Below are positions 5,830 through 41,071 of a stretch of DNA of 64,000 bases, one piece after another (within the stretch, counting starts at the first letter, position 1; each line of letters begins with the position of its first letter). Origin of the DNA: Jaapia argillacea MUCL 33604. Lineage: Eukaryota; Basidiomycota; Agaricomycetes; Jaapiales; Jaapiaceae. The notes beneath the pieces are model-generated. The model ran no database searches and was not told the origin of the DNA. It saw only the letters and a program-made list of their open reading frames with translations. Where the stretch lies: the NCBI GenBank assembly GCA_000697665.1, contig KL197738.1:171145-235144 (forward strand). Reading direction: 5' to 3'. The position numbers and the translations under genes were made by a program.

Positions 5830-5895
5830 CTTGAACTGAGAGGCTATCGCTACTGCAGAGGGATGCTGGCTAACCTCTGCATTGTGGTACCTCCT

Positions 5896-8025: not shown

Positions 8026-8091
8026 CTTGAACTGAGAGGCTATCGCTACTACAGAGGATTGCTGGCTAACCTCTGCATTGCGTTACCTCCT

Positions 8092-8097
8092 CTTATA
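8092..8097 (-). promoter_or_regulatory. TATA box of AA9 copy 4
   Basis: Reads CTATAAGAGGAGG, one change from the others, 67 bases from the ATG at 8025. Confidence 0.7.
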
Positions 8098-17051: not shown

Positions 17052-17056
17052 CAACC
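17052..17056. repeat. Left target-site duplication CAACC
   Basis: The five bases before the LTR at 17057 read CAACC, and the five after the LTR ending at 40488 (40489-40493) read the same. This ties the two LTRs to one insertion of 23.4 kb. Confidence 0.85.
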
Positions 17057-18273
17057 TGTTATGAGTGCCTTAGTGTTAGCATAAGGTAGCGAATAAGGCT
17101 TGTAAGTCCTTTGGGTATTTCTTGCTAACTAGTACTCAGGCTATGATCTTGTGGCAATAGAGGATGACAAGAATGAGCAAACCGGTTGAAGGATACAACT
17201 AAAGCGCTGTATTGTTCAAGTGGACAAGCTACCGAATACATAGTAGCTAGGCGTCCTTATGTACTACAGGAACAATGAAGAGTCGAACAATGTACTATGG
17301 ACAATAGCGAGTGAGACAATGTACTTTAGACAATGGCAAACGAGTTAAGGTTCAGAGACAATGACAAAGTACAATGAAAGAAGAACAAAAGGATAACAAA
17401 CAATGATGAGGCTGTACGAGGCTATATGTGGTGAGTCATTGGATGTTAATGGTAGTACAGAGTTCGAGATAAGATAAGATAAAAGGAATCGTACTAAGGA
17501 TCATAGACAAGGGAAATGATACTGTTAAGATCGTTACTTCAACGAAGTATACAATGAAAGACTTGATACTTCTCTGATGGTACCTAGGCTACAGCCACAG
17601 AGTAGAACGACGAGAGGATGAGAGACTATCAGAGGTTTCCAGACAGATGATCAGACAGGGACCAAGTTGGAACAATGTGAATAAAGATAACGATCTATAT
17701 TGACAAAGTGAACAAGATGGGGAATACTAGCAAATACAGGGAAGTATATATACTAAGATGAAGCACAGTCCGTAGTCTGTAGTAGTGATGAGTAAGACAG
17801 TAGTAAGACAGTAGTAATCATGAGTCAAAGTGAGTCAGGAGGATAGGAGTCCGTAGTTAGGGGTCCATAGTCCATAGTCCACAGTTGATGGTCTGATAGA
17901 TGAGTCAGAGACATAGGGGTCCATAGTCCGTGGCCTGGGTCGTACTGGAAGGTGGAATGTTGGTTGGAGTGTCGATGGTTTGAGTGCGAATGAGGGATGA
18001 TGCACTAGAAGTTGGATGTGCAGGAACAAGGATGTATCGGAGGGATGTCGAAAGGATATGTACCCGTCCCTTGTGTTCAGGAGGAATACGATCGTGGTGC
18101 TTGATGATCCCATATATGGAAGGATCAGATATCCGCAAGGAGTGTCGAATAACAAGAAAAATGAAAAATAGGCGTAGCAAGGTGTGATTCTTAACAGATA
18201 CGAAGATGATGAAGTCTGATGAAAATACAAACAATACAAATGAAAATATACAAGTCCGAATGCATTCACAACA
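17057..18273 (-). repeat. 3' LTR of the Gypsy element (carries a nested solo LTR)
   Basis: Starts TGTTATGAG and ends CATTCACAACA on the plus strand. Without the nested element (674 bases plus one 5-base duplication) it is 538 bases, exactly the length of the partner LTR at 39951-40488. It lies downstream of a purine-rich tract on the minus strand, as a 3' LTR should. Confidence 0.92.
17523..18196. mobile_element. Solo LTR of a different retroelement family, nested in the 3' LTR
   Basis: A 674-base element starting TGTTAAGA and ending TCTTAACA, a perfect 8-base terminal inversion of the TG...CA type. It is flanked by the 5-base duplication GATAC (17518-17522 and 18197-18201). The partner LTR at 40 kb has the uninterrupted site. 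Length, ends and duplication size fit a solo LTR. It shares no obvious sequence with the host LTR. Confidence 0.85.
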
Positions 18274-18287
18274 CCACCCCCTCTCTA
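18274..18287 (-). other. Polypurine tract of the Gypsy element
   Basis: On the minus strand this reads AGAGAGGGGGTGG just before the 3' LTR start (TGTTGTGAATGC). It is the expected plus-strand priming site for reverse transcription. Confidence 0.75.
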
Positions 18288-19485
18288 AAGTCCGACATTG
18301 TCCCTAATGTCCTAATTAAGCCTTAGGGGCGACAGGGGCAGGTTCAGAAGGGTACCAGGAGGGGAGTTGAGGGCCCATGAGACCGTCTGACCCAGCCAAA
18401 CATTTTCCCTGTTCGATCCAGTAGGAGTGGGTCCACTCAGCTGTCTGGAGAGCGGTCGCTGACGACGATACTTGTTCCATAAGGAAGTCAAAGAGGTCGT
18501 TTTCGATGCAGATGCGGTCGGTGTACGGGATGGAAGGGGTCGACCAGTGTAGGGGTGGAAGCGGGGTGTGGCTGGTGGAGTTGTGATGAGTGGTGGTGGG
18601 TCGTGATCGTAGAAGGGGCTTACAATGGTTGGTTTTTTTACACCTATAGATGCTCGGAGATACAGACAATCCTCTGAATCCGCCATCACAATGGCCGACC
18701 CATAGGATGCGAGACCACAGGGAAGAAAGTCTACTCGAGCCCTTGCGGCCTGGGATGGCGGTTTGCAATCGCATTTGACAGTCATCCCCCCCAGCATTTG
18801 GGTCGGCGACGTCTTTTCTCCTTGTTGGTTTGAGGCCAGATGTCCTCCGAATCCACAATAGCCTCATTGTTCCATCCCTCGTTTCGAGTCTTATTCCACT
18901 CATCTACTTGTTCCTATGTCCATCCGGTTCTCCAAGCATCGGCAGGTGTGGGTTCGTTAGGCAGGGTTGGCAGAGCGGGCCATTCAGACAGAGGGGTTTC
19001 AGGTACAGATACTAGTGAAGGCAATGATGGGTGATTAGACATTTTGCTCTGAACTAATGCATATGTACCTGCTAGTGCGAATGGATGAGGGGTTGGTACT
19101 CGAGGATTGGGTGCGTCTGCTGGTGACACTGACAGGTGTCTGGAGAAGGGTCGGGGGTGTTGTTCCTCGAGGTCTAAGTCAGTAGTCAACGTGAAGGAGG
19201 AGTCCCCCAGGGTGGAGAGGAGAGGGGATATGGGCTGATAGTCAGACTTGTGGAGGGAGGATGTTGGAGAGTCAGGGTGGTAGGAGGCACTGGAGGCAAC
19301 GTCGGTGTCTGGATCGATGGGGAATTGAGCGGGTTCTACTGTCAGGAGTTTGGATAGGTGGAGGCGAGTGAGCGGGGGTAGGATGGCAGCGTCTGCTCGT
19401 AGATCACTGGCGGGATCGTAGCGGATGGTGACAACTGGGGTTAGGTAGTAAATTACCCCTTCGGAGGCGTCCCTGTAGTAGTACT
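18288..19485 (-). other. Gypsy-derived region between the KDZ insertion and the 3' LTR
   Basis: Open, Pro- and Ser-rich frames run on the minus strand, for example at 19189-18914 and 18903-18316. I do not recognise a domain. Being inside the LTR pair and outside the KDZ terminal repeats, it belongs to the retroelement, probably a post-integrase reading frame that some mushroom chromoviruses carry. Condition: broken. Confidence 0.45.
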
Positions 19486-19620
19486 ATAATGAGTTGGGTA
19501 AGTCTCCAGCCAACACATTACAATGGGGCGGAAAGGAAACCTCAGCTAAACTACTGTGGTACATTACAATGGGCTGGTGAAACACATAATAATGTGCAAC
19601 CAGCTCCCGAACACCGCTTG
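19486..19620 (+). repeat. Left terminal inverted repeat of the KDZ transposon
   Basis: Carries ATTACAATG at 19517, then 37 bases, a second ATTACAATG, then 14 bases and ATAATAATG. Read on the opposite strand, the right end shows ATTACAATG, 37 bases, ATTATAATG, 14 bases and ATAATAATG. The identical spacing shows these are true terminal repeats. Confidence 0.75.
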
Positions 19621-19812
19621 CTGGGCTGCAAAAAAACACAGAAAAAGAAAAAGAAAAACATACAGAACTGTTGAAACATACCAAAAAAACATCCAAAAAA
19701 CATCCAGAAAGTACACAAATCAGGGTGCGGAGAGGAAGGGGGTGATAAGAACAGAAAAAAGCGACATAGCAATAACAACACCATGGGGGTGTGGGGGAGA
19801 GGGGAGGACTGT

Positions 19813-22800
19813 TCAATCACCAATCTCGGCATCCAATTCACTGCTCTGCCACAATCCATTGTCGTTGTCAAAGTCATCGCTCAGACTTGGGATGCCGTTG
19901 AGTAGGGCCTTGTCTTCATCGTTATCATCCGCTTCACGATCCATCCCCGTGATGATGGTGGAGGCCTTGGCTTGGGTACGAGCGGCCCTCCATGATTTCT
20001 CCCAAACTGCAGCGCGGCGATGTTCATAAAAGGCTTGCTCCAAAGTGTATGCGATCAAACCCTCCTTTAAATCGGGTGACATCGAGGGAGGAGGAGGTAG
20101 AGGATGGTGAATATGAGGGCTGGTAGGAGTGTACTGAATGACGGCTTGATGATGGGCCAGATGGGCAGCCTCCTCGAGTTCTTGACGACGAGTGGCCTGA
20201 TTCTCCCACCAGACAGCCTTCCACTTGCAATACTCAATGGTGCGATGCATCTCTTCATCAAGCAGAGCCACCTCTTTGACCCATCTCTCTGCTCGAGCCT
20301 TTGCCTTTGCCCATTCAATTTGGAGGGCTAAAGAAAAGAAATACTCTATAAGATTGATAAAATTGATAGACAAACTGTAAAAACTGACCTTCGCACATGT
20401 GCGGACCATCACCGTCATCCTTGTCATACTTTCCCTCAAGCCAAATCCAAGAGAGCTCTTGGTGACCTTCTCCAGGCTTAACAGTATCACCTCCCACCTG
20501 AACACCAGTCTTCTTCACCAGCCTCTCACCGTCCATCTGCTCAGTCTCCTTCAGGTCACTCTCATTCAGGCCTCGGACATCTTCCGGCTTCGGGACCTGC
20601 AATACTTTCTCCCATTGGCCTGGCCCTTGAAGAGCCATATAGGCTGCTCTTGAACGGCAATACCTGCTGACGCTTGAGGTGATCTTGGATTCAACCTGAC
20701 TGAGCATGCTGCATGCTCGGGTGTTGGCGATTTGGCCAGTGATATTCTTGATCTTGAACTTGGAAAGGTATGTTTGCATGCGAAGGTAGTTCCAAACATT
20801 ATGAAGAGCGTCCACCGCCTCGGCATGGCGAAGTCTTGCCTCCAGGGAGACCAGGCCGCTAGAACACCCTCTGGACCGCATGACTGTAGATAGGTCTGAA
20901 GGGAGGTAGAGCTTGGCATTTTCTGGGCCGGTGCTTTGGGTGGATCGAATACGAATGGCTTCAGCCTCTCGAATTGCTTCAACGCCTGGCATGTGGATAG
21001 CTTGAAGTTTGTAGAACCAGTCAACCTTTTGTTGAAGGCCGGTTTGTCGGTTCTGAAGCTCTGCAGCCTGCAGAGTAGTGGGGCCCAGGGTGGCCTTGAC
21101 ATCTTTGGACAGTGTTTCTCTGCAGAGATGTCAGAACGAATCAAAAGATACATAGAGCATTCAAACACTCACTGAGCCTTCTCAACATCCAAACCCAGAA
21201 TCAGAAAAGCCGTGGCACTGGACACCGCATTGACGGCTATCCCAACATTGCCTGCTTCCTCCTCCTGCATCACCATCTTCCGAACCTTGGAAAGGGTCAT
21301 AGCTAGAGACACTGAAGTGAGCCATGAGTGTACTCTCTAACGAATAGTGAATACGCACTATCTTCTGAAGTCTCATAAGGGCATGGCTTGCTATGATTGG
21401 CCTCCCATTCTACTAACATCTTCTCCCAGCCCTCCAGCTCCTTCAGACGATCACACTTTAGCTTGGCATGGAAGATCTTGAAGGCCGACATGTGCTTGAT
21501 AGCCTCAATGACAGCTTCAACAAGCAATTGAAGCAATGCTTTCTCTGGATAAGAGATTAGCTCAGGCTTGATTAGTTAGGAAGAGAACACTCACCCATGC
21601 CAATTGTCTTCAACCAGTTCATGAAGGCACAGAAATCATTGATGGTATCTTGACGAGTGCCAGGGCCCATCTCCTTTGTACTTGGCCCTGCTCCATTCAG
21701 CCATGCCCAAAGCCGCTCGGGACCTTCGCCGTTGGATTGACCAACACCATATCTGAAGTTAAACGAGAAAGGAGCCTGACACTTTTTTGCGTGCCCTGCG
21801 AGATGGAACTTGTTGACGAGGAAAGCGATACGGTCTTCAGGGGTCGAGAGGCGGAGGTGCTTGGGGAGACTCTTCATGCACTTGTAGAGGTTCTTCTTCC
21901 ACTCACACCCAATGTCGTACGAGTCGACGATCTTGATGGAAGGATTGATGCCTTGCAGGCTGGAGCAAAAAACAAAGTCGACATTGCAGAATCTGTCGCA
22001 CAAGGATCAGCAGATGTAAAAGAAGAAAAGAAACCCATGCATACCACTCTCCCTTCTGTAAATCTGCAAAGCCACTCTCCCTCCATTGATCGTGTCAGCA
22101 GCTGACTCCACACACCCTGGTAGATCGTAGACCCTTCGTTTGCTTGGTGTTGGCGTCCAGGAGGGTGGCGAATCCGGCACAACCCTTCACGTCCTCCTCG
22201 GAAGCATGGTTGAGAACATGCAAGGAGTACGGTGCATTGTCGACAAAATAGGCTTGGCCGTTGCTAAGAGTTGGGTCTCGCTCCTCGCTCGATCGCAGCC
22301 GGTTGCTCATGCAAAAGTTGCAGTCTTTATGGATGAACAATCGGTAAAGCCACCTGTCGCTGAGGTCAGCCTACAACTCGGGAGCCATAACACATACACG
22401 TACCTTGTGTCACCAGCCGCATTCTCCCAACCAGCTGGTAGATTCACTCCAGGAATAGGACACGCCTGACACCTGACAGCTAGGCCCCCAGCAGGGGTAT
22501 TGGCAAGACCATCAGGGTCATGACCACGCCCCGCTTGCTTCCCCATCAAAACATGTTGGAACTCCCATATCATAAGCATGAAGGAGGGCAGCCGGTCCTT
22601 AACTGACGTTAGCTGACGAAACACGTTTGGCAATTAACCTACTCACTGGCAGCTTCACCAGCCCCATGGTGTTGGTTCGAAGCTCAAGCGTACGATAGAA
22701 GTCATAGGCTGACAGCTTACCCTGCAGGTTGAGGGCTTGGAAGTGTCGAAGGGCGCGAAGGGTCGTGCATGTTTGAGGCTCCAACAGCGTCGCAGGCCAC

Positions 22801-23667
22801 CACCCAGATTGTAGCAGCTGCAGATGCTTAGGCGTCATGATGACACCGCAGCCGCAGAAGTTGACATTCACTTGATGAATACCATTGATATCGAGAATCA
22901 TGAAATCCTTGTGGGCGGCCTTCGCATAAAGGCATCGCTGCCCAGGAGGGTGGCCAAGTTGGATCCATAGCCCAAGACCCTTTAGGGTTCTTCGATGAAA
23001 GAAGCTGTCCTCCCATTCCTAGATCATAGGAAATCAATGCCTAAAAACATGGAGGAAGGCGAGAACACGTACCTCAACACGATGCAGAGGCGTTCATTGA
23101 TGGCGCCTAACCAAGCACTCTGCACACACCACATCTCCTCCAAAGCAGTCCCGACACCGAAAAAATGCTGCTTGCCGACAATCCGGACAACCTAAGCCAT
23201 GAGAACATCCCATTCCCTCCAGGGAAATGAGCTCATCCAGGTACTCGTCGCAGTAGGGGATCCAAGTCTTCAGCGGGTCATCCTGAACGAAGAGAACAGA
23301 GTTAGTATGTTCAAGCAAACGGTATCTGCAAGTCGCTCACCGAGTTCGCGTACCTCTTGGCTCTACAAGGAAGGCATTGGTGGGAGCCTGATACAGGTTC
23401 AACCTCGGCATCAGCAATATCCTCAGCCGCATCCATCTCAACCTCAGGCTCCACATTGACTCAAGCAAGGGGAAAAGGTGAGGGTCGAGCTACTTTGACT
23501 TGATGATCCTGTCTCAATAATCGTCGACTGTCGTGAGAGACAGAGAGGTCGGTTACAACTGCAGTCCTGACGGATGGGTGCCAGACCTCAGCAGTTGAGG
23601 CAATGGGCTTGCGTTTCTTCCTCTTCCTGATAGCGGCATTGAGTTTGGCTGTCTCGGAGGGCGACAT
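19813..23667 (-). CDS. KDZ transposase with CxC2-like zinc cluster
   Basis: The transposase of the KDZ element, expected to bind its ends and move it in the nucleus. Start chosen at the ATG at 23667 (MSPSETAKLNAAIRKRKKRK), a basic start typical of the family; stop at 19813 after ELDAEIGD. It has many exons. The CxC2 cysteine cluster follows an acidic linker (CSHGLGCPDCRQ, then FRCRDC and CAEC near 23200-23100). Next come MILDINGIHQVNVNFCGC and FYRTLELRTNT, and then the core catalytic region: SYDIGCEWKKNL (about 21930), NKFHLAGHAKKCQ, NGEGPERLWAW and EMGPGTRQDTINDF (about 21660). The C-terminal third is helical and charged (EEMHRTIEYCKWKAVWWENQ). I see no clear internal break, so it may be intact, although I have not verified every junction. 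Confidence 0.85.
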
Positions 23668-23834
23668 ATTGGAGGATACAACAGTCTGGAAGGTAAGAAG
23701 TTGGGTTACAACATGGCAAGGAAGTTTGGCTGAGCAGTTCTGAAACGGAGGGCGCTTATGCATAGTTCATTAAGATACCCGATTGATTAGTAATCTGACT
23801 AGCATATGAGTGGCATTAAGTAGAAAATAGCTAG

Positions 23835-25557
23835 CTAAGCTTCAGTATCTGCAGGTGGATTGAACTCGTGAATACGAGAGAATCTATCTAAAGCAAGCTG
23901 CCAATGTAAGGCTTGTTTGCCGCGAATTTTCTCCAGTAAGCTAGGGTTGCCTTCCTGAAGAGATCTAATGGACTGAAGCCCGTACTCAGCCCACCTGAAA
24001 AGCCCTCCAGCAGCATATTGAGTGAACAAATAGCGACGTTCATGCGGCTGAATGGCAGTGTTGCCATGTAGAAGGGTGCTAGATGGTATCAGGATGGTTG
24101 AGCCTGGCAGAAACTTGATGATAAGCTTTAGGTCGAAAAGAACAAAGTGCACCCCCTTTGTCGGATCGTACTGGCCAATAGCGGTAACGGCACACCAACC
24201 TGGTGCATAGTTCTCTCCATTGACGTGCGGCTTGGTCACTGCACTGGGGCTGAGGTTGAACATCGCAGCAGGCCAGACGCTGTTGTCAAATATTTGACGG
24301 CAGTGGGGGTACGCCTCGTAGATCTGATTAAGGGTTGCTTGATAGTGATTGTGGAGACGCGGGGTGTAAAAGGAAAAAAGGGTGTTGTTATGCCCTGCGA
24401 TCCGACGAAACACACGGGTTTGTACAAGCTGTTGAAAGGCACGAGCATGCTGTGCAGAGTTCGCCAGATTCCCAGGCACCTAAGTGTCTGTGAGAACAGG
24501 CATGAACACATGCAACGGGCAACTCACCTTTTGACTGCCTCCGTGCGAAACCCCTCCCCCAAGAAACATGTAGTTTCCCCACCAATGGCAAAGCTCTTCC
24601 TCCGAGAAGCGACATGCAGCCCTGGCACTCTCCATTGCTTCAACAGCTTCTCTCACAACCCCATGGTCCCAAGAATCTTCTACTCGGCATTGTGGCGGAT
24701 CTCGAGGAGGAGGGGCAAGGACAACTACTACGTGATCCTTTGCGTCAGTAACGACGCCGTGTGTACTGCCACAGCCAAACCATGAGAACAGCAGACTAGT
24801 GAAGAGACCGGGTACTCACCAACCATCCCAGTGGCGATACTCAAAGCCCATGGCGATAAGCTCCTCAGCTGTGAAGACCTGATCGGCCTGCTTCAACACT
24901 CTCATACCAACAAAGCCTTCTGCAGCAGGCATTAACACTTGATTCGCATCAATCACGCCTAGGACTGCCAGCTGGGAGTAGGACTTGGAGATTGCAGGTC
25001 GAAGCTTGCGCTTCACATACACGTTTGAAGCGGCTTTGCATCGCTTCAGAAGGGCTCGCTTTGCGTCACGATTATTCTTGGTGTTGGATCTTGATTGACA
25101 AAGCTTGGTGGGGAGCGAGCAAGGCATCCGAGATACTGCAGATGGCTCGGGAGGTTTGAGAAGGTTTGAGATAGGAGAGAGAGGGAAGAAAGGCGTAGGA
25201 TGAGAAGCACATGTAGAAGTTGGGATGCGAGGCGAGGCTGGAGGGCTGGAAAGCGGCAAGCTTGGAGGGCTGGATAGTGGCGAGAGGGAGGTGCACGTCT
25301 CAGATGATTCATCAGCGACAATTGAATCCCCAGGCTTACAGACGTCCTCTACAGCAACGTGAAGAGCTTGGAGTAGGAGCGATCCAAAGTCAAAGGACGT
25401 GGCGGGCGCTATGACAAAAGGGGAGAACTCCCTTCCGGAACAAGTCTAACAAAGAGCAGTTAGGCTGGAGCAGCTGAGAGGATGGGGAAGGGCTTACTGT
25501 CTGTACCATTGAACTCAAAACTAAATGATGCAGAACATCTAGATGCGGGAAAGCCAT
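23835..25557 (-). CDS. TET/JBP-family 2-oxoglutarate/Fe(II) dioxygenase, KDZ cargo
   Basis: Related to enzymes that oxidise 5-methylcytosine or thymine in DNA. Four exons join in frame: 25557-25498, 25445-24820, 24765-24528 and 24479-23835, coding for 522 residues. The N-terminal 150 residues are Ser- and Pro-rich; a basic stretch and a conserved lead-in follow (EYRHWDG, VVVVLAPPP, SARAACRFSEEEL). The double-stranded beta-helix core is in the last exon: GWCAVTAIG, the DLKL strand, LPGSTILIPSS, the distal iron ligand His446 in LLHGN, the 2-oxoglutarate Arg region ERRY (456-457), and FTQYAAGGLFRW. The first iron-ligand motif reads PHVNGEN, so Asn395 stands where the family has Asp. That may cost activity. 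The gene lies 167 bases upstream of the transposase start, on the same strand. Confidence 0.78.
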
Positions 25558-26219
25558 TAGTTGGAACGAGCAAGGAGTAAACTGACTTACTAGGCTCAGG
25601 AAGGGCAAGCCAAAAGCATTAAACGACTGGAAAGATAGTGATGAACGTCAGTGACATTCAACAAAAGGTAAGAATGCAAAGGGCTGGCACCCACAGCCTG
25701 GAGAGGCTACCGCCAGCGCCGACCCATAATGCCTATGAAGACTTTGCAACGCCTTTGCTAGGGAGTGCAGAAGTGGGCGCCAGCAAATAACAACTCACCG
25801 GGTAGTTAGACAGACGGAAAATATGTGTGAGCTATAGTAAAATGTGTAGTGTAATGACAGGGTGGATGAACGAAGAGATGAAGCTTGCGATGGTGTGTAG
25901 ATATCACGTTCTCAGTTTGAACTTGCAGGCTCGTGGTATTTCACTCGTGCCGTGGATCTATGGGTGGCCTCAAGTTGCTCAGACATTGGCTGAGGCTTGG
26001 TTGCCCTGAACTTCATGCCATACGACATTTGCCTCCCTTACTTTTTAAGAATACTTTAATTATGTCCTGAACTAAATGAACTTGTGTTTGAGCTTGGTGT
26101 AATTCACCAAAAGCTTCCTTAGGAATCGACATTGATTGATCTGATGGACCCAAGATAGGATGCTTTAGCACATGTCTAGTTAGGGGGTATCTCAAATAGG
26201 GCTTCAACAATCCTTCCCC
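25558..26219. other. KDZ intergenic region
   Basis: About 660 bases between the TET/JBP gene and the next cargo gene. No convincing coding sequence. It should hold the promoter of the TET/JBP gene and the 3' end signals of the gene to its right. Confidence 0.5.
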
Positions 26220-27782
26220 TCACACGCCAACGCAAAAAACTTCACACCTCGCAAGCACCTGCTGATACCCCTCAACAGCACCCCCCTCCGAACTGAACAC
26301 CTCCACCTCCACACCATTGATGTCTCCAGCTGCAGTATGAGCATCAGAACTTTCAACAAAGATAGTCAGCATGGCGCGGCAGTCAGATTCTGTCAAAGCA
26401 ACTCACAGAGTTTGAAAGACGCCCGTTGTCTTACCGGTGTACACGCAGTACCAGCATCTTGTGGCCTCGGGCTGGCTTTGGCGAGCATGGACGACTGGAA
26501 GGAGGATCCTCGTTATGCCAGATTGCTCTGCCAATAAAAACTCGTGGAGCACTTCTTCATACAAGTTGTAGCCTTGAAACACTTGAAACGGAACTTTTTT
26601 CACTCTGGCACAGGCCTTGCTCCTATTTCAGGTCAGTAAAAGGCTACGTTGATCAACAATGAGCGTCCTTACCAGTCAGTGAAGATGCCAACTTGCACCC
26701 CCTTGAAAACAACGTAGAAGCATCGAGCGTTTGTACCATGGTCTCGTGGAATTACTCGCAGTAGTGGCACCAGAGGGCCAGTTGCTGGAGGAGGAAGTCG
26801 ACCTTGAGCTACCTGAAGCTCGCCTTGGGTTCCAGCTACCTGGACGGTATCCATGGCCTCCTCAAAGGTTCAAAATCTGTTTTGGACTTGATGTGGAACG
26901 CCCTGCGATAGGTGGGCTGCAACAGGCCTGGGTTCGATGTTTTGAGCTGCAGCTCGGTGGGGGTAGAAGAAGAAGTGCGCACCAGTGTCTTGTGACTCCA
27001 ACCGCCCTTCCGACCATAACTCCATACGCCTTTGGGCGTTCTTTTTCCCTGGTTTGAAGTGACTGAACCGTCGTGTCGGGGGCCTCATCAAGCAACTTCG
27101 ATGCTCTGACCCTGTTTCATCGGGTGTCAATTGGCCGGATATCTTCAAAAGATAGACTCGGCGATGCTTGCCATTGATCTGTGGACAACGTCCTGTTCCC
27201 AACTGTCACAATATATGAATTACCATTGGAACCCTGATACCCTCCAGGAGTATCAAACCAATCCAACCCAACCGCAGCCAAAGGGAGTCGTTGGGCTTGG
27301 TGGTCGGTTGTATCAGAGCTGGAGAAAGCAGTGGTGGTGGAGCATAGACTGATAGAGGAGATGGATGGGCTGACCAAGGAGACGGTGGATGGGTTGACCG
27401 AGGAGATGGTGGATGGGCGGACCGAGGAGATGGAGGATGGGCTGATCGAGGAGATGGTGGATGGACTGATTGAGGAGACAGCAGATGGGCTACTGGATGA
27501 TCTACTGGCAGTTGTGGGTGGGCTTTGAAACTGCTGAGGCTCAGCTGGACGAGGATTCAGTAAGGGCTGGCTTGTAGCCTGTCTCAAGCGATGCTGAGTA
27601 GTGAGCGGAGCAGGGTATTGATACCCATGGAAAGGCTGGTTTGATGAAGTTTGGGAGCTAGAGGATTCTTCACGAGCAGGAGGATAGGTAGAACCTGGGG
27701 CTTGCAGATAGGAGACATCACTGAGTTCGGGGTTGTTCTCAAGCACCAGTTGGCCAAGCCTGATGATCAAGTCAAGATCCAT
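26220..27782 (-). CDS. KDZ cargo protein with RNase H1 N-terminal-type (Cauli_VI) domain
   Basis: Starts at the ATG at 27782 (MDLDLIIRLGQLVLENN). The first 130 codons lead into a low-complexity run built on repeated S-S-I-S-P-S and S-V-x-P-S-T units. Further along, two exons splice in frame to give FYVVFKGVQVGIFTDW followed by SKACARVKKVPFQVFQGYN and YEEVLHEF. This matches the small RNA-DNA-hybrid-binding domain at the N-terminus of RNase H1. A second, degenerate start of the same kind (WYCVYTGKTTGVF) follows at about 26450, with an in-frame TGA soon after. The last stretch ends CEVFCVGV and stop at 26220. The middle exons (27100-26750) are hard to order, so the gene may be damaged. No catalytic RNase H core is visible. 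Confidence 0.5.
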
Positions 27783-27951
27783 GTCTAGCTGAGGTGTGTT
27801 GAACGTTTATCGTTGTATACAGTATCCTCGCAGTCATGCCCTTTACTTCTTCTCAAAGTCACGCCTTTCGCTTACGTCTAAACGTCAATTCGCCAGCTCA
27901 TAAATCTTGTGTTCCAGCGCGTTCTTTGTTCCTTCATTCCACTCTGTCACC
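27783..27951. promoter_or_regulatory. Short divergent promoter region inside the KDZ element
   Basis: Only 169 bases separate the ATG of the minus-strand cargo gene (27782) from the ATG of the plus-strand accessory gene (27952). A shared two-way promoter is likely; no single element stands out. Confidence 0.5.
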
Positions 27952-30900: not shown

Positions 30901-31486
30901 ATACAGCCTCTTAGCCTGTACCCTTCAAACTGGTTCGCTCTCGCTCGTCATCCTCTACCGCCTCAACTTGTCGTAGCCTGAGTACTTGGTAAGCGAAGTA
31001 CCCAAAGGACTTACAAGCCTTACTCGCTACCTTCGCTAACACTAAGGCACTCGTAACAGGAAGGACCTTCATCGGGGTGGACAGAACGGCTTCATCACAG
31101 TTCTGATGGGGTTATTGTGGTGGGGGAACACTGTTAATGCTGGCCAGGTGGAGGTCTCGGATGTCGCTCTTTTGGAAGTGGTGGATGATGTAGAGTGGGT
31201 TCTCCAATCCATGATCTCAACTTGGCCAGTGGGTGGGACTACCGATGTGGCTACAGAGGTGAGAGGTGAGCCAGTGCCAGGTGAAGTCAGAGGCCAGAAG
31301 CGAAGGTAAGTTTTGACATTTTTCTTAACACCCAGTTCCTTACCTGCTCAACAGGGCATGAGCAGATGATGATGAACCTTCTGCAAATCTGGCCCCTAGA
31401 AGGAAAAGGTAAATTCTTTGGTATTTCGTTCAGTGGAGTTTGCTTTGTTGATCAAAAATGTTTTTAGAGGCAATCGCAACACGTGA
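27952..31486 (+). pseudogene. Decayed KDZ accessory gene (unknown function)
   Basis: A multi-exon plus-strand gene of a kind often found beside KDZ transposases in mushrooms; the function is not known. Start MEESQPTTPPTQDASP. The conserved N-terminal part has LFLLKYNDDWIRAHN and VMKLWCLKYGFDLP. Next come RQQAIHIFYREHKPSIE and LNGYLFLTGPMPRYQGE, then a Ser/Pro-rich middle with three near-identical RSLLSIE units, and a C-terminal block with NGFITVLMGLLWWGN. It has in-frame stops after FDLP (TAA, about 28219), after GKKGC (TGA, about 28624) and possibly near 31359. A solo LTR interrupts the codon run after VLDWK at 30571. The TAA overlaps a good splice-donor sequence (GTAAGA), so that one site could instead be an intron edge. 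Confidence 0.65.
30566..31063 (+). mobile_element. Solo LTR of the Gypsy family inside the KDZ accessory gene
   Basis: The LTR is 30571-31058 (488 bases), starting TGTTACGA and ending TCGTAACA, flanked by the perfect duplication GGAAG (30566-30570 and 31059-31063). It shares long stretches with the 538-base LTRs at 17 and 40 kb but in opposite orientation, so it would have been transcribed rightward; a TATATAAGG box lies near 30848. It post-dates the KDZ insertion. Confidence 0.88.
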
Positions 31487-31519
31487 GGCTTCGACCTGAC
31501 TAAACGCCCGCTGTGTTGA

Positions 31520-31730
31520 GTTGTTTTCAGGTTCTTGTCTCCGACTCCGCCTTCGAATGCACCTGCCCTCTTATCTCCAACCCCATTGTCATCTTCACCT
31601 GCTGTCTTGTCTCCAACACCAACGTCGTCTTTACCCACTCGCTCGTCTTCAACTTCAACATCGTCTTTACCCACTTGCTCGTCTTCAACTTCAACGTCGT
31701 CTTCACCTGCTTCGTCATTTCCCCACATTG
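31520..31730 (+). repeat. Imperfect short tandem repeat, Ser/Thr/Pro-coding or acidic-coding
   Basis: Imperfect units of about 30-36 bases around TCGTCTTCAACTTCAACATC and CTTTACCCACT. The repeat keeps frames open on both strands: S/T/P-rich on plus, D/E/V-rich on minus. It may be the low-complexity tail of the accessory gene; I do not call a separate gene. Confidence 0.5.
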
Positions 31731-32049
31731 AATATCGTCTTCACCCGTCTTGAACCCTAATATCGTCTAATCTCAACATGCAAACTGCAAGTCGTCTGGC
31801 TTTCTCTTGGTTCCCGTTTCTATACCCTCCCCCCTCCTGCTCTTTTCTTTTACAGAAGACCCTCTTTTATACTCTAAGTAATGGTTATTGTAGTTTTTCA
31901 TTTTTTCTTTCAGGTGCTCCTTTGGGAACTTCTGTGCGTTTGTTTTCTGTTCCTTTGTCTTCCGTCTTTTATGTTTTCGGGAGTTTCTGTGTGTTTGTTT
32001 TCTGTCTTTTATGTTCCTCTATTTTCCATAATTCCTTTTTTGGGCCCCG
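31731..32049. other. KDZ right-end noncoding region
   Basis: T-rich sequence on the plus strand between the repeat and the terminal inverted repeat. No gene is seen. Confidence 0.5.
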
Positions 32050-32186
32050 TAAGCGGTTGCAAAGTGGCAGTAGGGCATTATTATGTACTGCAGAGATGCA
32101 TTATAATGTGCATCAGAAGAATAGCTGAGGGATACTCTCTGGTGCATTGTAATTGACAAAATGGGTAATTGTCCTAGTACTTTATA
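32050..32186 (-). repeat. Right terminal inverted repeat of the KDZ transposon
   Basis: Mirror of the left end with the same motif spacing; the outermost ATTACAATG is on the minus strand at 32153-32145. Both ends also share CCTCAGCTA between the first two motifs and ACCGCTT beyond the third. Confidence 0.75.
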
Positions 32187-34497
32187 ATACTGGTACAGGG
32201 ACTGGTGCCCTTCGACTTCTTCGAGCATGTCGCTTATGGTGGGGCGGTGCATGCTGACTGTGAGGCATTCAACCTGTGTTGGGTCATTGCGGAGGGTCCA
32301 TAGGGAGGCCTGGAGATATCCTGCTTTATGCAGGTAGTCGGTGACGAGGCCTTGCTCCCATTCGATGGTGTCGGCATGGTCGACGACTTTGCCATGCTCA
32401 TTCCTGGTGTAGCGAGGGCCAATAAAGAAGTGTGCAGTGGGGGTGATGCAGTTGAAAAGGTGGATGGCGTTGATGACTGAGAGCATGATGTGGTTGGTGG
32501 GTGTTTGGTCAGAAGACGAAAGTAGATGATAGTCAAGTTGGAGTTTTAGCTGGTTGGCTAAGAGGCTGCTGGTGCTGCTGGAGTATTCGATGAGAAATGA
32601 AGTTTTGCAGCTTTGCTAGGTGTGCTTTTATATGCTCTGGATTCGGATGTTTTGAGAGTACTTCGGGAATCTGTAGGTAGTTCTCCTTTGTTGTCCGTTC
32701 TACCTCTCTATTGATCCAGAAACGTGTCCATTGTTCTTCAGGTACCTTGAGTAGCGTCAATGCAATTTGCACAGGTTTCGGTGCTTTTGGGTTCTTCTCA
32801 TGGAATGAGTCGACTAATTTCGCCGAGTTATGTAGATTGCCGATATCTTCCCAAGTATTTTCTGATTCAGGGTAGCCTTTCCATTTGACTAAGTATTTGA
32901 TCTTCTTGGTTTTTCCAATGACCTTCGATTTAACAACTTCCTCCACTTCGTATTCCTCCTCGCCTTCTATTAAATCCGGAGGGGGTTGTGGGAAATTGAT
33001 TCCATGTTCTTCCGTTTCTCGATATGATGTAAGTAATCCTGCATGGAATACTGGATGGATTCTCCATTTCTTCGGTGGTGTCAGTTTGTAAGTGCCGGAT
33101 CCTATGATTGCTTCGATGGGAAAAGGTCTGTGTTGTCTTGGAGATAGTTTGGTGCTAGGATATTCTGTTTTGACATTTTTTCCTTCTAACCATACTTTGT
33201 CTCCTATGGCGAAGTTCGGTCCTTTTACTCCATAGGCATCGTGTTGTTTCTTCATTGCTTCGGCAGCAATATGTAAACAAGCTTCTGCTTCTCATCTTGA
33301 TTCTTTTAGTTCTTCAAGACATTGGTCGGCTGTGGGGATGTCTGGTACAGGTCTAAATGATCCCACTGTTTCGGCACGGAAGCCATGCATGAGTTTGAAC
33401 AGTGTTTGTTTGGTGGCAGTATGTACTCGTGTGTTATGAGTTAATTCAGCGGTGAAGAGTAATGATGGCCAGTTGTTTTGGGTGCGGTTGCAGTATGCTC
33501 GAAAGTATACTTCCAATTCCAAATTGACTATTTCGGTGGCTCCGTCCGTTTGTGGGTGAAATCCTGTGCTTAGTGCAGATTTGATGTTGAGTCGTTCTAG
33601 AATTGCTTGGAGTACTTTGGAGACGAATTGTGGTCCTCGATCTGATATGATTTTGTCCAGTAATCCGTAGTGTCTAAATGGTCCGTCCATCAGGAGTTTG
33701 GCTGTTCCATCAGCATCTATAGTTTTGTGACATGGCGTGGCGACAATAGTTTTAGTGAATCGGTCGGTCATGACATGAATTGTGTCATATCCATCCGCTT
33801 CTGGTAGTCCAGTGATGAAGTCTTGGGTTACGATCTGCCAAGGTCATGTGGGGATCTCTGTAGGATGTAGTGGTTCTTGAGTTGGATTCGTATTTGGTTT
33901 AATTGTCTGACAGGTGGCACATCCATCAACGTAATTTTTTACGAAAACTGACATTCCTGGCCACCAATAATCTCTTTGTACTATTTCTAATGTCTTGTAT
34001 CTCCCGGGATGTCCCATCAATACGGGGTCGTGACAGGATTTGACTATTTTGCGTCGTAATTCCATGTCTTTGGGGATGTAGATCTTTCCTTGATAGAGAA
34101 TTAATCTGTCTTCCTGGTTCCATTCTTCTAGTCCCTTCTTCAGAGATCGTGGCCCTTGCTTCCTGATGATGTCTAAGGCTGTTGCTACTGATTCATCAAG
34201 CTCTGTGTGGTTCTGAATTTCCTCTTTGAGTCCTAAGTCACCTTCTAATGTTGTGACAGCTGCTCTAATGGTGATTCGAACTTGTCGTGCTAGTATGGGG
34301 GAGTGGGTTGAGGCGTTTCCTCGACCTGTAAGATTGATTGTTTTCGCAAAAAGATTGGGGCCTAATAGTATTCTGTCCAAGTTGTCTGAATCCACCCCCT
34401 CCTTATGGTCTTGTTGTCTCGAAAGACTGTCAGACTTGTTTGTCTTTCCAGGTTTGTGAATCAAATTGAATTCGAATCTTGTCAAAAATTGGCCCAT
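32187..34497 (-). mobile_element. Gypsy integrase and chromodomain region
   Basis: Part of the retroelement. On the minus strand: a zinc-binding integrase N-terminus (HPGRYKTLEI, then CATCQ), the core with the family's usual runs (MTDRFTKTI, SDRGPQFVS, FHPQTDGATE), and the C-terminal domain. A chromodomain follows (EVEEVVKSK, YLVKWKGY, NTWED) near 32830-32960. It would direct insertion toward marked chromatin in this group. After it, 32532-32187 continues with coding-looking sequence up to the KDZ transposon. Condition: broken. Confidence 0.88.
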
Positions 34498-36433
34498 CGG
34501 GCCTGTCTGCGGCTTAGTTTCTGCACATTTCGGAAGTACTCGAGGTTCTTGTGATCAGTGTATATTTGGATAGGATGTGTACATCCTTCAAGGTAATGGT
34601 GCCAAGCTTCCAATGATCGGATTATTGCTAACAGTTCTTTGTCGTAGATGTCATAATTCCTCTTGGCATCGGTTAGGGATTTGGACAGGTATGCGACTGG
34701 GTGCCATTTGCCGTCTGTTTCTCTCTGAGTTACAGCGCCTTTCATAAGTATGCAGAAAGACAAATTTTTTCAACAAGCCTCCTAGCCACAAACGAAGCTA
34801 ATTCGGGTCGCTATGTGTCATGGCTCCCCAAAAGATGTGGAGCGAGTACCGAAAGTCTCCACGATCGATGAAGCTTCCTTTCCAAGAACTCCATACGAAG
34901 GACATCAATTTGGGACCAAATGCCCATAGTTGGGGCTCACATACCTCAATGGTCCTTTGTTGCTTGGTTTCTCTTAGTTCCTCTTAGTTTCTCATGGAGC
35001 AAGTCAGACTAATGAACAGTCACAGATGGGTCAGAATGGTCTGATGTGATGGAAGAGTTCCAAATCTAGCATTGGATTTGAGGTGGGGCTGCTCGAGAAA
35101 AAATCATCTTTCCGCATACTTATGAAAGGCGCTGTAACACTGCTCTGGTTGCATAATCGGAGGCATCACATTCTATCTGGAATTCCTTGGTGGTGTCTGG
35201 CATGACCAGTGTCGGGGATGATGTGAATGCCATCTTCAGGCTGTCAAATGCTTCCTGGCATCTCAGAGTCCATTCCCATTCATGATCCTTCTTTGTCAAT
35301 TCGAATAATGGTTTTGTGATTCTGGAGAAATCTTTGATGAATCATTGGTAGAAATTGCAGAATCCAAGGAATGATTGAACTTCCTTGACCTTCTTCGGTT
35401 CTGGCCATTCTGTGATTCCTGCCACCTTGATCGGATCCATTTCCACAAGATTGTGGGATACGATCAATCCCAAATATTCGATTTTCGGTACTTCGAATGT
35501 GCATTTCTCTGGTTTGAGAAATAGGTCGTTATCTTGCAGTATTTTCATTATGCGATGGAGTATTTGTCAATGATGTATGAGATCTTTTGTGAATATTAGG
35601 ATGTCGTCCAGGTATACGACCACATAACCCTCGTCGATGAGTTCTTTGAATAGTTTGTTCATCATCATCTGGAATGTTGCCGGTGAATTCATGAGTCCGA
35701 ATAACATAACCCAGGGTTCGAATAATCCCCGGTTGGTTTTGAATGCGGCCTTCCATTTGTCTCCTTCCTTGATTCTGACGTTATTGTATCCCCAGCAAAG
35801 GTCCAATTTGGAATAGACCTTAGCTCCTTTTAGTTTGTCGACTAATTCCGATATCAATGGAATGGGATATGTGTTCTTGATGGTTTGGGAGTTCAGGTAT
35901 CAGTAATCTTGAGTTGGCCGGAGTTTCCCATCCTTCTTTTTGGCAAAGAAGAATGGTGATGATAATGGGGATTTAGAAGGTTGGATGTATTTCTTTCGTA
36001 GTTGTTCTTCCAGGAATGAGTTGAGTTCCTTTTGTTCTGCTGGTGACAGTGGATATGTTTTGCAGTTATTTGGTTTCCACCCATCCTTGAGTTCGATGGC
36101 GTGGTCCCAGGGTCTTGGTATAGGGAATCTTTCTGATGCTCCCTTCTCAAATACCTTCTGGTATTTCTGATATTCTCTTGGCACCATTTCCTCTAAGGTT
36201 TTCTCTTTTTGTCCCTGGGCGGCTCTTTCCGCTAATTCGATTGATTTATTTCCTTGTGCCCAAATTTGTATAAGTGATGGATGTTCGGTGTCATTGATGA
36301 TGTCTTCGTCTTCTGGTATGGGATCCCCGATTTGGACTCTATATGCTTTGATCCCCTCGTATGCCCATTTGTGGGTGCCTTCCTCGATCTGAAGTGTTTT
36401 GTCATTTATCCAAAGTTCTTTTGACAGTTCCAC
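34482..36433 (-). mobile_element. Gypsy reverse transcriptase and RNase H region
   Basis: Part of the retroelement. Recognised by [24 protein letters not shown], the YLDD active-site box in [11 protein letters not shown] (about 35620), and RNase H runs (YTDHKNLEYF, about 34550). A MITE of 402 bases sits between the reverse transcriptase and RNase H parts. Condition: broken. Confidence 0.88.
34733..35134. mobile_element. MITE with TA target duplication (mariner type)
   Basis: A 402-base insert with terminal inverted repeats of about 27 bases beginning CAGCGCCTTTCATAAGTATG, flanked on both sides by TA (34731-34732 and 35135-35136). The TA duplication and lack of coding capacity suggest a non-autonomous Tc1/mariner relative. 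It lies in the reverse transcriptase-RNase H part of the Gypsy element and is therefore younger than it. Confidence 0.8.
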
Positions 36434-36442
36434 GCTTGTGTT

Positions 36443-37054
36443 TCATTTAGGCGGTTTGGTTCGTGTGGTTCTGACGACAGGTGGTTCTATTTTGACCCTT
36501 GCTTTGGGTGGTCGTAATTTGGGTTTTGTCTGCATGGTTACTCCTTCTTCTGATATCTTGCAAGTTTTGGGGCATCGTGTAAATTTGAGGATGTAAGATC
36601 GCCAATCAATCTCCAGATTGTGTTTGAGTAACCAGTCACTTCCCAAAATGATGTTACTTTTCCTGATATTGGTTACATAGAGGCGGTTCCTTTCTTCATG
36701 TCGTCCTCCTTCCCTCCCATATATCCTGATGCCCAATTCGACGTAATGATTGATTTCACCATTTGTATTCTCGGTATCGTCGATGTTATGGACGGGAATG
36801 GGTCTTGCCAATTTCTGAAGGTGCATTTGTTTCTTGAGTGCGTATTTGTAGCTGATTAAGTTTCCTGTGGCTCTGCTGTCAATTAGAGCTTCTGTTGTGG
36901 CTGTTTTGTTTCTCCCGATAAGTCCCACTTGAATACACAACGAAGGAGTTCCTGAATTCCTAAGTGTGGATACATTGATCAAGTCCAGAATGTCCAAAAT
37001 ACTATATCTGTTATAATTATGAGAGAAACGTCCAATTACCTTCTCATTCGCCAC
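36443..37054 (-). mobile_element. Gypsy protease-like region
   Basis: Part of the retroelement, between the gag zinc knuckle and the reverse transcriptase. Retropepsin-type layout with EALIDS near the middle and the later SNIILGSDWLLKHN run that closes the fold in this group. Condition: degenerate. Confidence 0.7.
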
Positions 37055-37239
37055 CGATGGAAGGTATTTTAAAAACCCAATTTGGAAAGTTGTTCCTGCA
37101 TTCCCTGAATGACTTCCTCCTTCTCGTCCTCTGCTGTTTCTTTCAGTAGTTCCTCAATTCTTTCCATAGTGGATCAGGGATGTCCTTCTTCTTCCCTCTC
37201 TACTTCTGCTACTCGTGCTTGAAATCGGTGAGGGAATCT

Positions 37240-39938
37240 TCATTGTCTGGGTCTTTTGGACAGGCATTTATTGGAGAAGTGTCCCGGTTTACGACAGTAG
37301 AAGCATGCTCCCTTCTCTCTTAGAGCCTTTCTATCTGCATCTGTAAGCTTCTTAAATCGAGTTGTCATCCCCGAATGGTTAAATTTTGTGGCATCAATGT
37401 CCATAGGTACACCCATGTCAAGTCTAGTGGATTGATAATTGCAATTATACAACGGTGGGTGTTCATTTGTATCCAGGTAGATGGGTTTGGATTTCCGAAA
37501 TCGCCAAGATTCTTCATTCCTGGCTTGTTCGCAATGCAGGTCTTCTCAGATGGCGGCGGCTTTGAATTCTGCGAAGGTACTTGGTGGTGTGGGAAGGTGT
37601 ACGAGAACTTTGAGTATGTCCCAGCTGAGTCCTCGTTTGAAGTATTCCCATAAGGCTAGATCATCAAATTTGGTATGTCAAGCTAGATCCTCGAATTTGG
37701 CAATGTACTGGTCAACAGTAGTGCGTCCCTGATGAAGGCTCTGGATCTGCATTCTTGCTGTTGCTCCTTTGTCTAATTCTCTGAATGCTTCTTTCAAAGC
37801 CTTGGAGAATTCTTCCCAATTATCCTTTATCTTTATCGCCGCTGCTTTCTTTGCGTCTATATCCCCCAGTAATTGCATCGCCCACGATCCTGCCGTGCCT
37901 TCCTTCATAAAGGAAAGGCTATAGGCGACTTTGGACCATTCATCTGGGAAGTCTCCTTGGTTGGCACCAAGTACGAGTTTGACTTCTGATAGGAATTTGT
38001 CGGTTTTACAGCGGTCTCCTGTGAATGGAGTTGGTGCGGTGAGTTTGGGTCCTTTGGGTGTGGGAGTAGTCATAACGATAGGTGGCGGTGGTGGAGGAAT
38101 TGGTGGTGGTGCAGGTGGAGAAGGCAGTCATTGTGGTTGGAATAAGACCGGATCAAGGGGATTTGGCAGGTTAACGAAAGGGTGTTCGGTATCTATAGGT
38201 TTGTCTTCTTGAGGATCGATCAGATCGGTTTCAGGGTTCTGTGTCTCGGCTGGTACGGTATCTGTACCGAGTGGTTGTCATATGGTGTGGTCTTCTTCAA
38301 TCTGATCTGTTTTGTCTGCTTCCGAATCTGTTTCGTTTGACGCTTGAAGGTTCGGATTTGGTGTAGTTGCACGACTTGGTTGTGCGGAAGGTGTAGTTGT
38401 GTAATCAGTTGATTCCCTTGTGTGTAACCGAGATGGAGCACGTGAAGGAAGTCGAGGAGAGTGTAGTCGAGGAGTCCTCGTGGTTCCTTGTCTAGAATAT
38501 GGATTGTGATAGGGTAAAGCTGTGGATATTGATAATGGTTCTGGTTCTTGTGGTGATAGGGTGCGTAAATGTTCTCGTTCCCAATCAACGTAGGTCGGAA
38601 ACTGTTCCTTGAACGGATGTTGTGGACTATTTGCAAATTGAACTTCGTTGGTTGTGGTACTCCAGACAAGTAGTTGTCTGTCAGGGGCGTAGAGTAATTT
38701 TGTACTCGGGTCATATTGTTACGACTCTGTATACCTGTTTCATTTTTCAGTTATCTTATCTTATCTCAGACATCTTATCTCGTCTTATCGCGTCTCCTCG
38801 GACCTATTCTATTTATATCACATTGTACCATTATTAGCTTCGCTTCTTGATGTATACCCATTCGGCAGGATACCGATCTCATTACTGATCTCCGGTACTT
38901 TCTATTCTCTTCTCTATGTTTCCATCATGTTCTCTTCCGTTCCCTGGACGCTATTCTTAACGCCTTCTATACCATTCTACTATGTTCTCCCTTTCTGGCC
39001 CTAGTATATAAGGTGCTCTCGCCCTCTTGTATTCCTTAAGCTTGTCCACTTGAATAATACAGCTCTTTAGCCTGTACCCTTCAACTAGTTCGCTCTTGTT
39101 CGTCATCCTCTATAGCCTCAAGTCGTAGCCTGAGTACTAGTCGCTAAAGTGCTCCTAACACATGCTTGGTCAAATTGCTTTTCGGTGACAGCTTTAGCTT
39201 CGTCGACTGTCGCGGCTCGGAGGTTGTTTCTGAACTTTGGTGAAACCGCTTGTTCTGTAATGGCGTCTTTATTTAGGAATATTCGTGAAGGATTGTAAGG
39301 ATATTGCATATCCCGATTAAAAGATTGATTATGATATCAAGGATTTCAGATAAGACCATGTGGATGAGTGAATAAGGAATGATTAGGGTTTTGGAGGTGA
39401 CAATCGTTTGTTGAGGATAAGGTAGTTGGTGATGGTGAATTGGATGGCTGTGAGGACGACGCAATGGAATTCAATTAAGAATTCCGTGAGACTAAGTGGA
39501 CTAGGTCGTGGGATCGCTGCTGGGATTGGTGCAGGGTCTGGGTTCCTAGTACTGGTTGTTCGGAGTGCGTCGTACGCTGGTGGTGTGTTGCGGGGGTTGT
39601 TAACACAATGTGGTGATGACTGTTTCGGTTGCAATGTTGGTTTGGACAAGTCGGGTGAGGTTGTCGTCCTGAACCTGTGTTATTTCGTGGAGACGTCGTG
39701 ATGATAGATCGTTGGGATCTATTTGTTCTGTAACAGGGAATTCTTAGTTGTCTCGGCATTCGTCGCACTTCCGTCGGATTTCTCGTAGGTACCGATCGAG
39801 TCGTGATGCGATGTCGATGAGTACGTCACTGAGGAACTGTAGGAAGAGGATGACGAACTGGATGTGTATGGGGCGTGTGGGTGGAATGATCGCAGATCCT
39901 GACTGTGTCGGTATCGTAGAGTGAGTAGGGTTGGTAAG
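37240..39938 (-). mobile_element. Gypsy gag region
   Basis: Part of the retroelement. The retrotransposon gag domain is at about 38073-37680 (TAPTPFTGDRCKTDKFL, SWAMQLLGD, ALKEAFRE). A CCHC zinc knuckle follows at about 37300 (CFYCRKPGHFSNKC). Upstream, 39938-38220 holds a long low-complexity gag leader, interrupted by a solo LTR at 38717-39160. Condition: broken. Confidence 0.82.
38717..39160 (+). mobile_element. Solo LTR of the Gypsy family inside the gag leader
   Basis: 444 bases, TGTTACGACT to GCTCCTAACA, with the same orientation and many of the same internal blocks as the solo LTR at 30571, including the TATATAAGG box (about 39004). No clean target duplication is visible (CATAT to the left, CATGC to the right), so it may be older or its edges have changed. 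Confidence 0.75.
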
Positions 39939-39948
39939 AGCTTGTCCA
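39939..39948 (-). other. Primer-binding site, self-priming type
   Basis: On the minus strand TGGACAAGCT lies two bases after the 5' LTR. It is the exact complement of AGCTTGTCCA, found inside the LTR itself about 35 bases after its TATA box, where the transcript should begin. That is the arrangement of self-primed elements such as Tf1; no tRNA 3' end fits obviously. Confidence 0.6.
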
Positions 39949-39950
39949 AG

Positions 39951-40488
39951 TGTTATGAGCGCCTTAGCATTAGCGTAAGGTAGCAAATAAGGCTTGTAAG
40001 TCCTTTGGGTATTTCTTGCTAACTAGTACTCAGGCTACGATCTTGAGGCAATAGAGGATGACGAGAATGAGCAAACCGGTTGAAGGATACAACTAAAGCG
40101 CTGTATTGTTCAAGTGGACAAGCTACCGAATACATAGTAGCTAGACGTCCTTATATACTACAGGAACAATGAAGAGTCAAACAATGTACTATGGACAATA
40201 GCGAGTGAGACAATGTACTTTAGACAATGGCAATCGAGTTAAGGTTCAGAGACAATGATGAAGTACAATGAAAGAAGAACAAAAGGATAACAAACAATGA
40301 CAAGGCTGTACGAGGCTATATGTGGCAAGTCATTGGATGTTAATGGTAGTACAGAGTTCGAGATAAGATAAGATAAAAGGAATCGTACTAAGGATCATAG
40401 ACAAGGGAAATGATACGAAGACGATGAAGTCTGATGAAAATACAAACAATACAAATGAAAATATACAAGTCCGAATGCATTCACAACA
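39951..40488 (-). repeat. 5' LTR of the Gypsy element
   Basis: 538 bases, TGTTATGAGC to TTCACAACA on the plus strand, followed by the right copy of the CAACC duplication (40489-40493). It would drive transcription leftward, in agreement with the coding direction of the element. Confidence 0.92.
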
Positions 40489-41071
40489 CAACCCAGTCCA
40501 TTGACAGGCTTCAGCTTCTTAATCTGTGAATGCATCCAGAAGCTTTGTGCAGAGAATTATGTTGACTTAAATAAATTTCAAGACCTGAGGCTATCCACTG
40601 AATACTACTGAATAACACTCATGATCATTGACATCATGCAATAGGGATTTTTCACCCCCCAGAATATGGACAAACAAACCCAAATATTGGGGAATTCGGT
40701 TGGTATTCATTCCTTTGCTACAGAGATGAGTATCACACTGTTTGCTGCCAGGTCTTGGTTGCATCTGGTCTATAATATACAAGCTTTAATACTACCAGGT
40801 CAGATTTTGAAAAGAAGTCCTCAACACTGAGAGAGAGGAACGAAATCCAGAATGTGGGTCCCATTTTATCCAGATTTCTCACGCCATAATATGAGTGGCG
40901 AAAACTCCCTAATAACAACAATATATGGCTGGACAGCGAGTTCAAACACCAGCCATCCTCCACATTCTCAACAGAGGGCAATACAATACCCCAACCTATT
41001 ATCCCAACATCTCATATCCATGCACATCTCCATACAATATATCCACCAACCAAAGCCACTGGACCAGCTCT
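40489..41071. other. Right flank of the mobile block
   Basis: AT-rich sequence like that left of 17052, so it was probably continuous with it before the retroelement arrived. It may hold the remaining 3' part of the unknown gene at 16238. No exon can be called with confidence. Its right end is the 3' flank of the F-box gene. Confidence 0.4.

Follow-up and report, generated by a model that had tools for sequence, protein, structure and literature searches.

The systems described so far that come closest to the locus analyzed here are of three kinds. Chromodomain Ty3/Gypsy retrotransposons (chromoviruses) share a gag-protease-reverse transcriptase (RT)-integrase-chromodomain order, a 5-bp target duplication and a polypurine tract. 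The TET-carrying Kyakuja DNA transposons of Agaricomycetes, according to the portion of Kojima (2025; PMC12730594) on which we draw, combine a KDZ transposase and a TET/JBP-like gene with 7-bp target duplications and CA..TG ends that lack inverted repeats, while Zisupton and the Dileera element described in the same portion duplicate 8 bp. In Laccaria bicolor, finally, transposable elements (TEs) are tightly nested or clustered (PMC3411680, in the part consulted). Here we analyze a window of 64,000 nucleotides from Jaapia argillacea MUCL 33604 (GCA_000697665.1, contig KL197738.1, positions 171,145 to 235,144), in which a KDZ DNA transposon with a TET/JBP-like dioxygenase gene lies inside a chromodomain Ty3/Gypsy element and itself carries a solo long terminal repeat (LTR). 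The window corresponds to C30:171145-235144 of the searchable 43.7-Mb host genome, which has 95 contigs (C-numbers denote contigs of that genome).

We consider it very likely that this nest consists of separate ordinary insertions, with the Gypsy element arriving first, KDZ with its TET/JBP-like gene second and the solo LTR third, and empty sites support this order at each layer. A chromodomain Ty3/Gypsy element first entered a dispersed repeat, in minus-strand orientation, duplicating CAACC. A 12.7-kb KDZ element then inserted into its 3' region downstream of the chromodomain, duplicating CCCTTCG and bringing a transposase gene, the TET/JBP-like gene and a third gene, presumably through the cut-and-paste action of its transposase. 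An LTR element next entered the third KDZ gene with the duplication GGAAG and was probably reduced to a solo LTR by LTR-LTR recombination. A MITE-like element (miniature inverted-repeat transposable element) and two further LTR-like inserts also entered the Gypsy element, and the order given applies to the Gypsy, KDZ and gene-3 solo LTR layers only. An initial annotation of this DNA had proposed a KDZ transposon with TET/JBP cargo nested in one 23-kb Gypsy copy, and duplications, domains and paralogous empty sites bear this out; its list of layers correctly named these three and overlooked three more insertions as well as one 136-bp replacement patch.

The Gypsy element is on the minus strand, as shown by the polypurine tract that adjoins the left LTR and by the domains, which run from gag at 38 kb to the chromodomain at 32.5 kb (Table 1). 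Its domain order (gag, protease, RT, integrase and chromodomain), its TG..CA LTR pair and its 5-bp duplication are those of chromoviruses, from which it differs only in being interrupted by later insertions. Perfect 5-bp duplications were likewise found in the four of five fetched Gypsy relatives for which both outer edges were read (GAAAA, ATAGA, GTAGG and ATATC) and around two other single LTRs of the family (CTTCT and CTTTT), and relatives share with it the motifs just inside the two LTRs, the polypurine tract as well as the one on the primer side.

The left flank (window 16300-17056) is a dispersed repeat with 16 full or partial matches in the genome, itself included, and the matches to the left and right flanks adjoin on C16 and C1 (5 bp overlap) and on C24 (3 bp overlap). 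The initial annotation had proposed to look in related strains for a site with a single CAACC; among paralogues, the fetched 81-base empty-site stretches of C16 (75/81 identical to the joined flanks) and C1 (69/81) contain exactly this, and C24 contains a mutated equivalent (58/83 columns identical). With the flanks abutting in three paralogous copies of the flank repeat, the claim that CAACC brackets everything between the outer LTRs holds. On the right flank, a stretch at about 40642-40911 is missing in C16 and matched at 86% by C31 and C2, and is probably a further small repeat insertion.

That the outer LTRs represent two unrelated insertions or an assembly join, with CAACC matching by chance, has in our view a next to negligible likelihood. 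The LTR lengths are at first sight unequal (1,217 bp left and 538 bp right), and the chance for five given bases to match is 1 in 1,024; however, the left LTR appears longer because a 674-bp sequence with its own duplication sits inside it. Once this insert is left out, the two LTRs differ at 19 of 538 aligned columns (96.5% identity), compared to at most 88% for the other scored family matches (40 of 267 candidates scored). The three empty Gypsy sites, and a window sequence free of N throughout, likewise favor a single Gypsy insertion.

The insert between the chromodomain and the 3' LTR measures 12,744 bp, in agreement with the roughly 12.7 kb first proposed, and contains the transposase domain PF18758, which scores above its cut-off as expected for the KDZ superfamily, and the CxC2 cysteine cluster. 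PF18758 yields 71 matches in the host genome, merged to 41 loci, and matched none of 14 control genomes. The boundaries of the insert are seen from both sides: similarity to Gypsy relatives ends at about 19464 and resumes at 32208, and that to KDZ relatives covers the opposite sides of these two points. All five fetched Gypsy copies (C39, C9, C70, C12 and C47) read straight through the KDZ site, two with CCCTTCG as the target and the other three with a target that deviates from it by one base, so that Gypsy copies without the KDZ insert, the second comparison proposed initially, were also found among paralogues.

The KDZ ends could be fixed only because these Gypsy copies read through. Duplicated 7-mers alone did not identify them (18 exact pairs between two 500-base end windows, compared to about 15 expected), an inverted-repeat scan at the ends returned short matches only, and TAGTACT, a candidate target duplication, was dropped since the empty sites contradict it. 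At the ends thus fixed we observe imperfect terminal inverted repeats (18/22 at positions 7-28, core TCCCTGTA), with 20/30 positions matching overall, a level attained by 2 of 200,000 random 30-mer pairs drawn from the window. Copies of the left end are present at C34 and at two places on C1, and of the right end at one place on C1. C1 also has a KDZ whose left end directly adjoins inverted gene-3 sequence from another KDZ, which suggests a KDZ inserted in a KDZ.

A different history, in which the Gypsy element captured KDZ-TET elsewhere and the composite retrotransposed here as one TET-carrying retrotransposon, appears highly improbable. It would agree with the clean position of KDZ within the LTRs and with the proximity of Gypsy-family LTRs to KDZ loci, which exceeds the uniform expectation (10 of 41 LTR matches within 20 kb, including the two of the window and three on C39, compared to about 1.6). 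Against it stand the ten other Gypsy copies that match both sides of the KDZ site: besides the five that read through, four (C54, C8, C29 and C14) have gaps well below 1 kb, and for the 8.6-kb gap of C24 the genome-wide listing, the only source consulted there, shows no KDZ domain. Moreover, the TET-like gene, which is sense with the Gypsy transcript, retains GT..AG intron candidates, an RNA of 23 kb is improbable, and the portion of Kojima (2025; PMC12730594) consulted reports no retrotransposon encoding TET/JBP.

The initial annotation had placed a solo LTR inside a KDZ gene, and in the C1 KDZ relative the GGAAG site is single and the LTR missing. The gene that it splits, the third of the KDZ element, has relatives at two places on C1 (68%) and weak matches on C36 and C29; none of its scanned pieces matched a Pfam family above cut-off. 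Because this gene is split and the iron-ligand motif of the TET-like gene reads HVN, the KDZ copy looks dead; it is probably immobile and its TET inactive.

With respect to the TET/JBP-like gene, a genome search with PF12851 gave 26 matches at E ≤0.1, 17 of them above the cut-off. A KDZ domain lies 1.1-2.1 kb downstream on the same strand in 19 of the 26 and not in the other 7. Among seven further TET-like places from a protein search (a weak ninth match on C17 was left out), KDZ is found downstream for the window and C29 and not for the remaining five. KDZ-TET pairing is routine in this genome (21/33 TET-like matches), and the window element has the common layout. The arrangement had been called unusual, which neither this frequency nor the tight nesting and clustering of Laccaria TEs (PMC3411680) supports; the nest is well resolved and of an already known kind, and KDZ-in-Gypsy nesting is ordinary. 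What sets it apart from the Laccaria bicolor clusters, as covered in the part of that paper used here, is that a single nest has been resolved down to its layers, duplications and empty sites.

The metal-ligand motif of the window's TET-like gene reads HVN (N codon 24219-24221) in place of HxD, and the distal H is kept. All seven genome relatives that cover the motif have HxD (HVD, HTD or HLD), three of them with an in-frame stop, and an eighth match, on C17, leaves it uncovered. Replacement of any of the three metal ligands of CcTet (His326, Asp328 and His376) by alanine abolished oxidation of 5-methylcytosine (PMC11040006, in the part consulted). The base before the N codon is a C, and the change therefore has CG-to-CA form. 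The TET-like active site looks damaged by the very decay process that the enzyme is thought to counter.

Several observations weigh against the account given so far. The empty sites are all paralogues and not the allele, with 74-86% identity over 65-70 bases at the KDZ junction, and the tenth Gypsy copy (C24) was matched only at the edges of its gap. The insert does not show the CA..TG ends without inverted repeats of Kyakuja, having GA at one end and imperfect repeats. The window's TET open reading frame (ORF) on its own has no Pfam or PDB match, PF12851 was matched by only two of five aligned members (best 20.7 bits, compared to a curated cut-off of 34.9), and it is we who infer that the D-to-N change came about by CpG deamination.

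One of these concerns the name of the element. Its 7-bp duplication (CCCTTCG) resembles that of Kyakuja, and it shares with the TET-carrying Kyakuja of Agaricomycetes, as the consulted portion of Kojima (2025; PMC12730594) presents them, the KDZ transposase, the TET/JBP-like gene and one CA/TG terminus. It differs from them in its other terminus, GA/TC, in its inverted repeats and in its HVN motif. GA is also found at three other left ends. Since it agrees with Kyakuja in duplication length but only in part at its ends, we file the insert as KDZ and not as Kyakuja.

Another concerns the identity of the dioxygenase, which might be another 2-oxoglutarate-Fe(II) oxygenase carried by KDZ and not TET/JBP, a reading that we consider unlikely. 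In its favor, besides the lack of a direct match for the window ORF, one TET-like relative also matches PF13640 weakly, and PF12851 matched one of the 14 control genomes (E. coli) below the cut-off, which means that weak matches can be chance. Sequence searches of the PDB that started from the TET ORF, from an alignment of it or from two relatives returned nothing relevant (one dehydrogenase, E 1.9). On the other hand, PF12851 is the best match of the C24 and C50 relatives (E 2.6e-4 and 0.0063, both under the curated cut-off), the C24 gene is also recovered by the PF12851 genome search, and the window ORF is placed upstream of its KDZ domain just as 19 of the 26 PF12851 matches are of theirs. 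It is from the relatives that we take the TET/JBP label, hence our wording TET/JBP-like, and we read the gene as a probable decayed relative.

Decay also governs what can be said of age. Of the 19 differences between the outer LTRs, 15 are CpG-type, including four TG-versus-CA sites, and in three other elements such differences make up 11/12, 9/14 and 7/9 (42/54 over the four elements). Non-CpG differences amount to 4/538 (0.74%, compared to 3.5% overall), and because most LTR differences are CpG-type the Kimura two-parameter distance of 0.036 is about five times the non-CpG divergence. The initial annotation had called the arrangement datable, which holds for the relative order and not for plain LTR dating, which is unreliable here and gives no calendar date. 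CpG observed/expected ratios decrease from 0.80-0.94 in the flanks to 0.65-0.68 in most of the Gypsy interior and 0.57-0.60 in KDZ; the solo LTRs that begin at 30571 and 38717, with ratios of about 1.0, fit a late arrival. The pattern is one of CpG decay and need not be repeat-induced point mutation. CpG methylation and deamination would later have eroded the block, including the CG-to-CA-form change at the TET iron ligand. The Gypsy stretch 39157-39950 (794 bp) beside the 5' LTR has a ratio of 1.2, compared to about 0.67 for most of the interior.

We further considered whether KDZ-TET and Gypsy elements share neighborhoods since TET relaxes methylation and Gypsy lands or survives there, with loss of the iron ligand by CpG deamination then closing and decaying the neighborhood, as here; this seems to us a decidedly unlikely proposal. 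The closest LTR relatives among the 40 of 267 candidates scored, on C29 (88%) and C24 (86%), are neighbors of the two closest TET relatives, at 7 and 14 kb from the respective KDZ. The C29 stretch, whose TET relative has HVD and a stop, has a CpG ratio of 0.50, and ratios between 0.27 and 0.92 were obtained for four unmasked Gypsy stretches at other places; these values, which describe mixed stretches and not single elements, count against a simple TET-protection story. The proximity of LTRs to KDZ loci may be explained by TE-rich regions. A KDZ-TET inside the same Gypsy was sought at C29 and rejected, as the 9 kb retrieved there contain a single LTR, flanked by a CTTCT duplication of its own, and nothing that matches the Gypsy interior.

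The remaining layers of the Gypsy element are smaller (Table 1). The 674-bp insert in the 3' LTR is probably a solo LTR of another family, and an 80% relative of it lies beside the C47 Gypsy copy. The 136-bp patch has a counterpart at about C11:864536-864673 (99.3% identity over 138 bp) and looks like repair filler or template switching. The MITE-like element lies between the RT part and the remaining pol and is missing in the four relatives that cover the site, and the site of the solo LTR near the gag end is covered by one relative only (C12). Elsewhere in the window, positions 1-8940 hold diverged tandem copies of a unit of about 2.2-2.7 kb (four of the best-matching part), 56842-63999 a duplicated block with copies about 4.0-4.1 kb apart (two long pieces, 74-82% identical), and 44555-50400 flanking host genes (Mis12-Mtw1 family, indoleamine 2,3-dioxygenase and cytochrome c).

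Table 1. Features of the nested block, in window positions
Feature	Position	Strand	Basis
Left target duplication CAACC (5 bp)	17052-17056		Flank comparison, empty sites
Gypsy 3' LTR carrying the 674-bp insert	17057-18273	-	LTR pair alignment
674-bp LTR-like insert TGTTAAG...CTTAACA in 3' LTR, duplication GATAC	17523-18196		Five fetched relatives match across
Polypurine tract AGAGAGGGGGTGG	18274-18286	-	Just inside 3' LTR
136-bp patch replacing 21 bp of Gypsy	18653-18788		Two Gypsy relatives compared
Left 7-bp target duplication CCCTTCG	19457-19463		Gypsy relatives reading through
KDZ DNA transposon, 12,744 bp	19464-32207	-	Paralogue boundaries, domains
KDZ transposase domain PF18758, two pieces with GT..AG intron candidate between	21575-22370	-	Pfam
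CxC2 cysteine cluster associated with KDZ transposases	22602-23018	-	Pfam, E 1.4e-41
TET/JBP-like dioxygenase ORF, 214 amino acids	23838-24479	-	Tet_JBP matches of relatives
Probable upstream exons of TET-like gene, GT..AG intron candidates at both joints	24483-25445	-	Predicted
Third KDZ gene, approximate limits	27803-31420	+	Relatives on C1
Solo LTR in third KDZ gene, duplication GGAAG at 30566-30570 and 31059-31063	30571-31058	+	C1 empty site
Right 7-bp target duplication CCCTTCG	32208-32214		Gypsy relatives reading through
Gypsy coding region: gag, protease, RT, integrase, SH3, chromodomain	32536-38127	-	Domain search
402-bp MITE-like element, ends CAGCGCC..GGCGCTG, TA duplication	34733-35134		Empty site in relatives
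Solo LTR near gag end, 444 bp	38717-39160	+	No clear duplication (CATAT / CATGC)
Gypsy 5' LTR, 538 bp	39951-40488	-	LTR pair alignment
Right target duplication CAACC	40489-40493		Flank comparison, empty sites

Among publications surveyed by title and the opening of the abstract, we found none that resolves a KDZ-TET element inside a Gypsy element. The nest described here gives exact ends, a 7-bp duplication and the empty sites of five relatives for a TET-carrying KDZ element, and it illustrates that a TET gene within LTRs can be a nested passenger and not cargo of the retroelement. The CpG-type majority of LTR differences in the four compared elements warns against plain LTR dating in this genome. 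The modestly interesting part is that the TET-bearing transposon is itself CpG-depleted, which invites the question of whether TET-bearing elements escape methylation-driven mutation.

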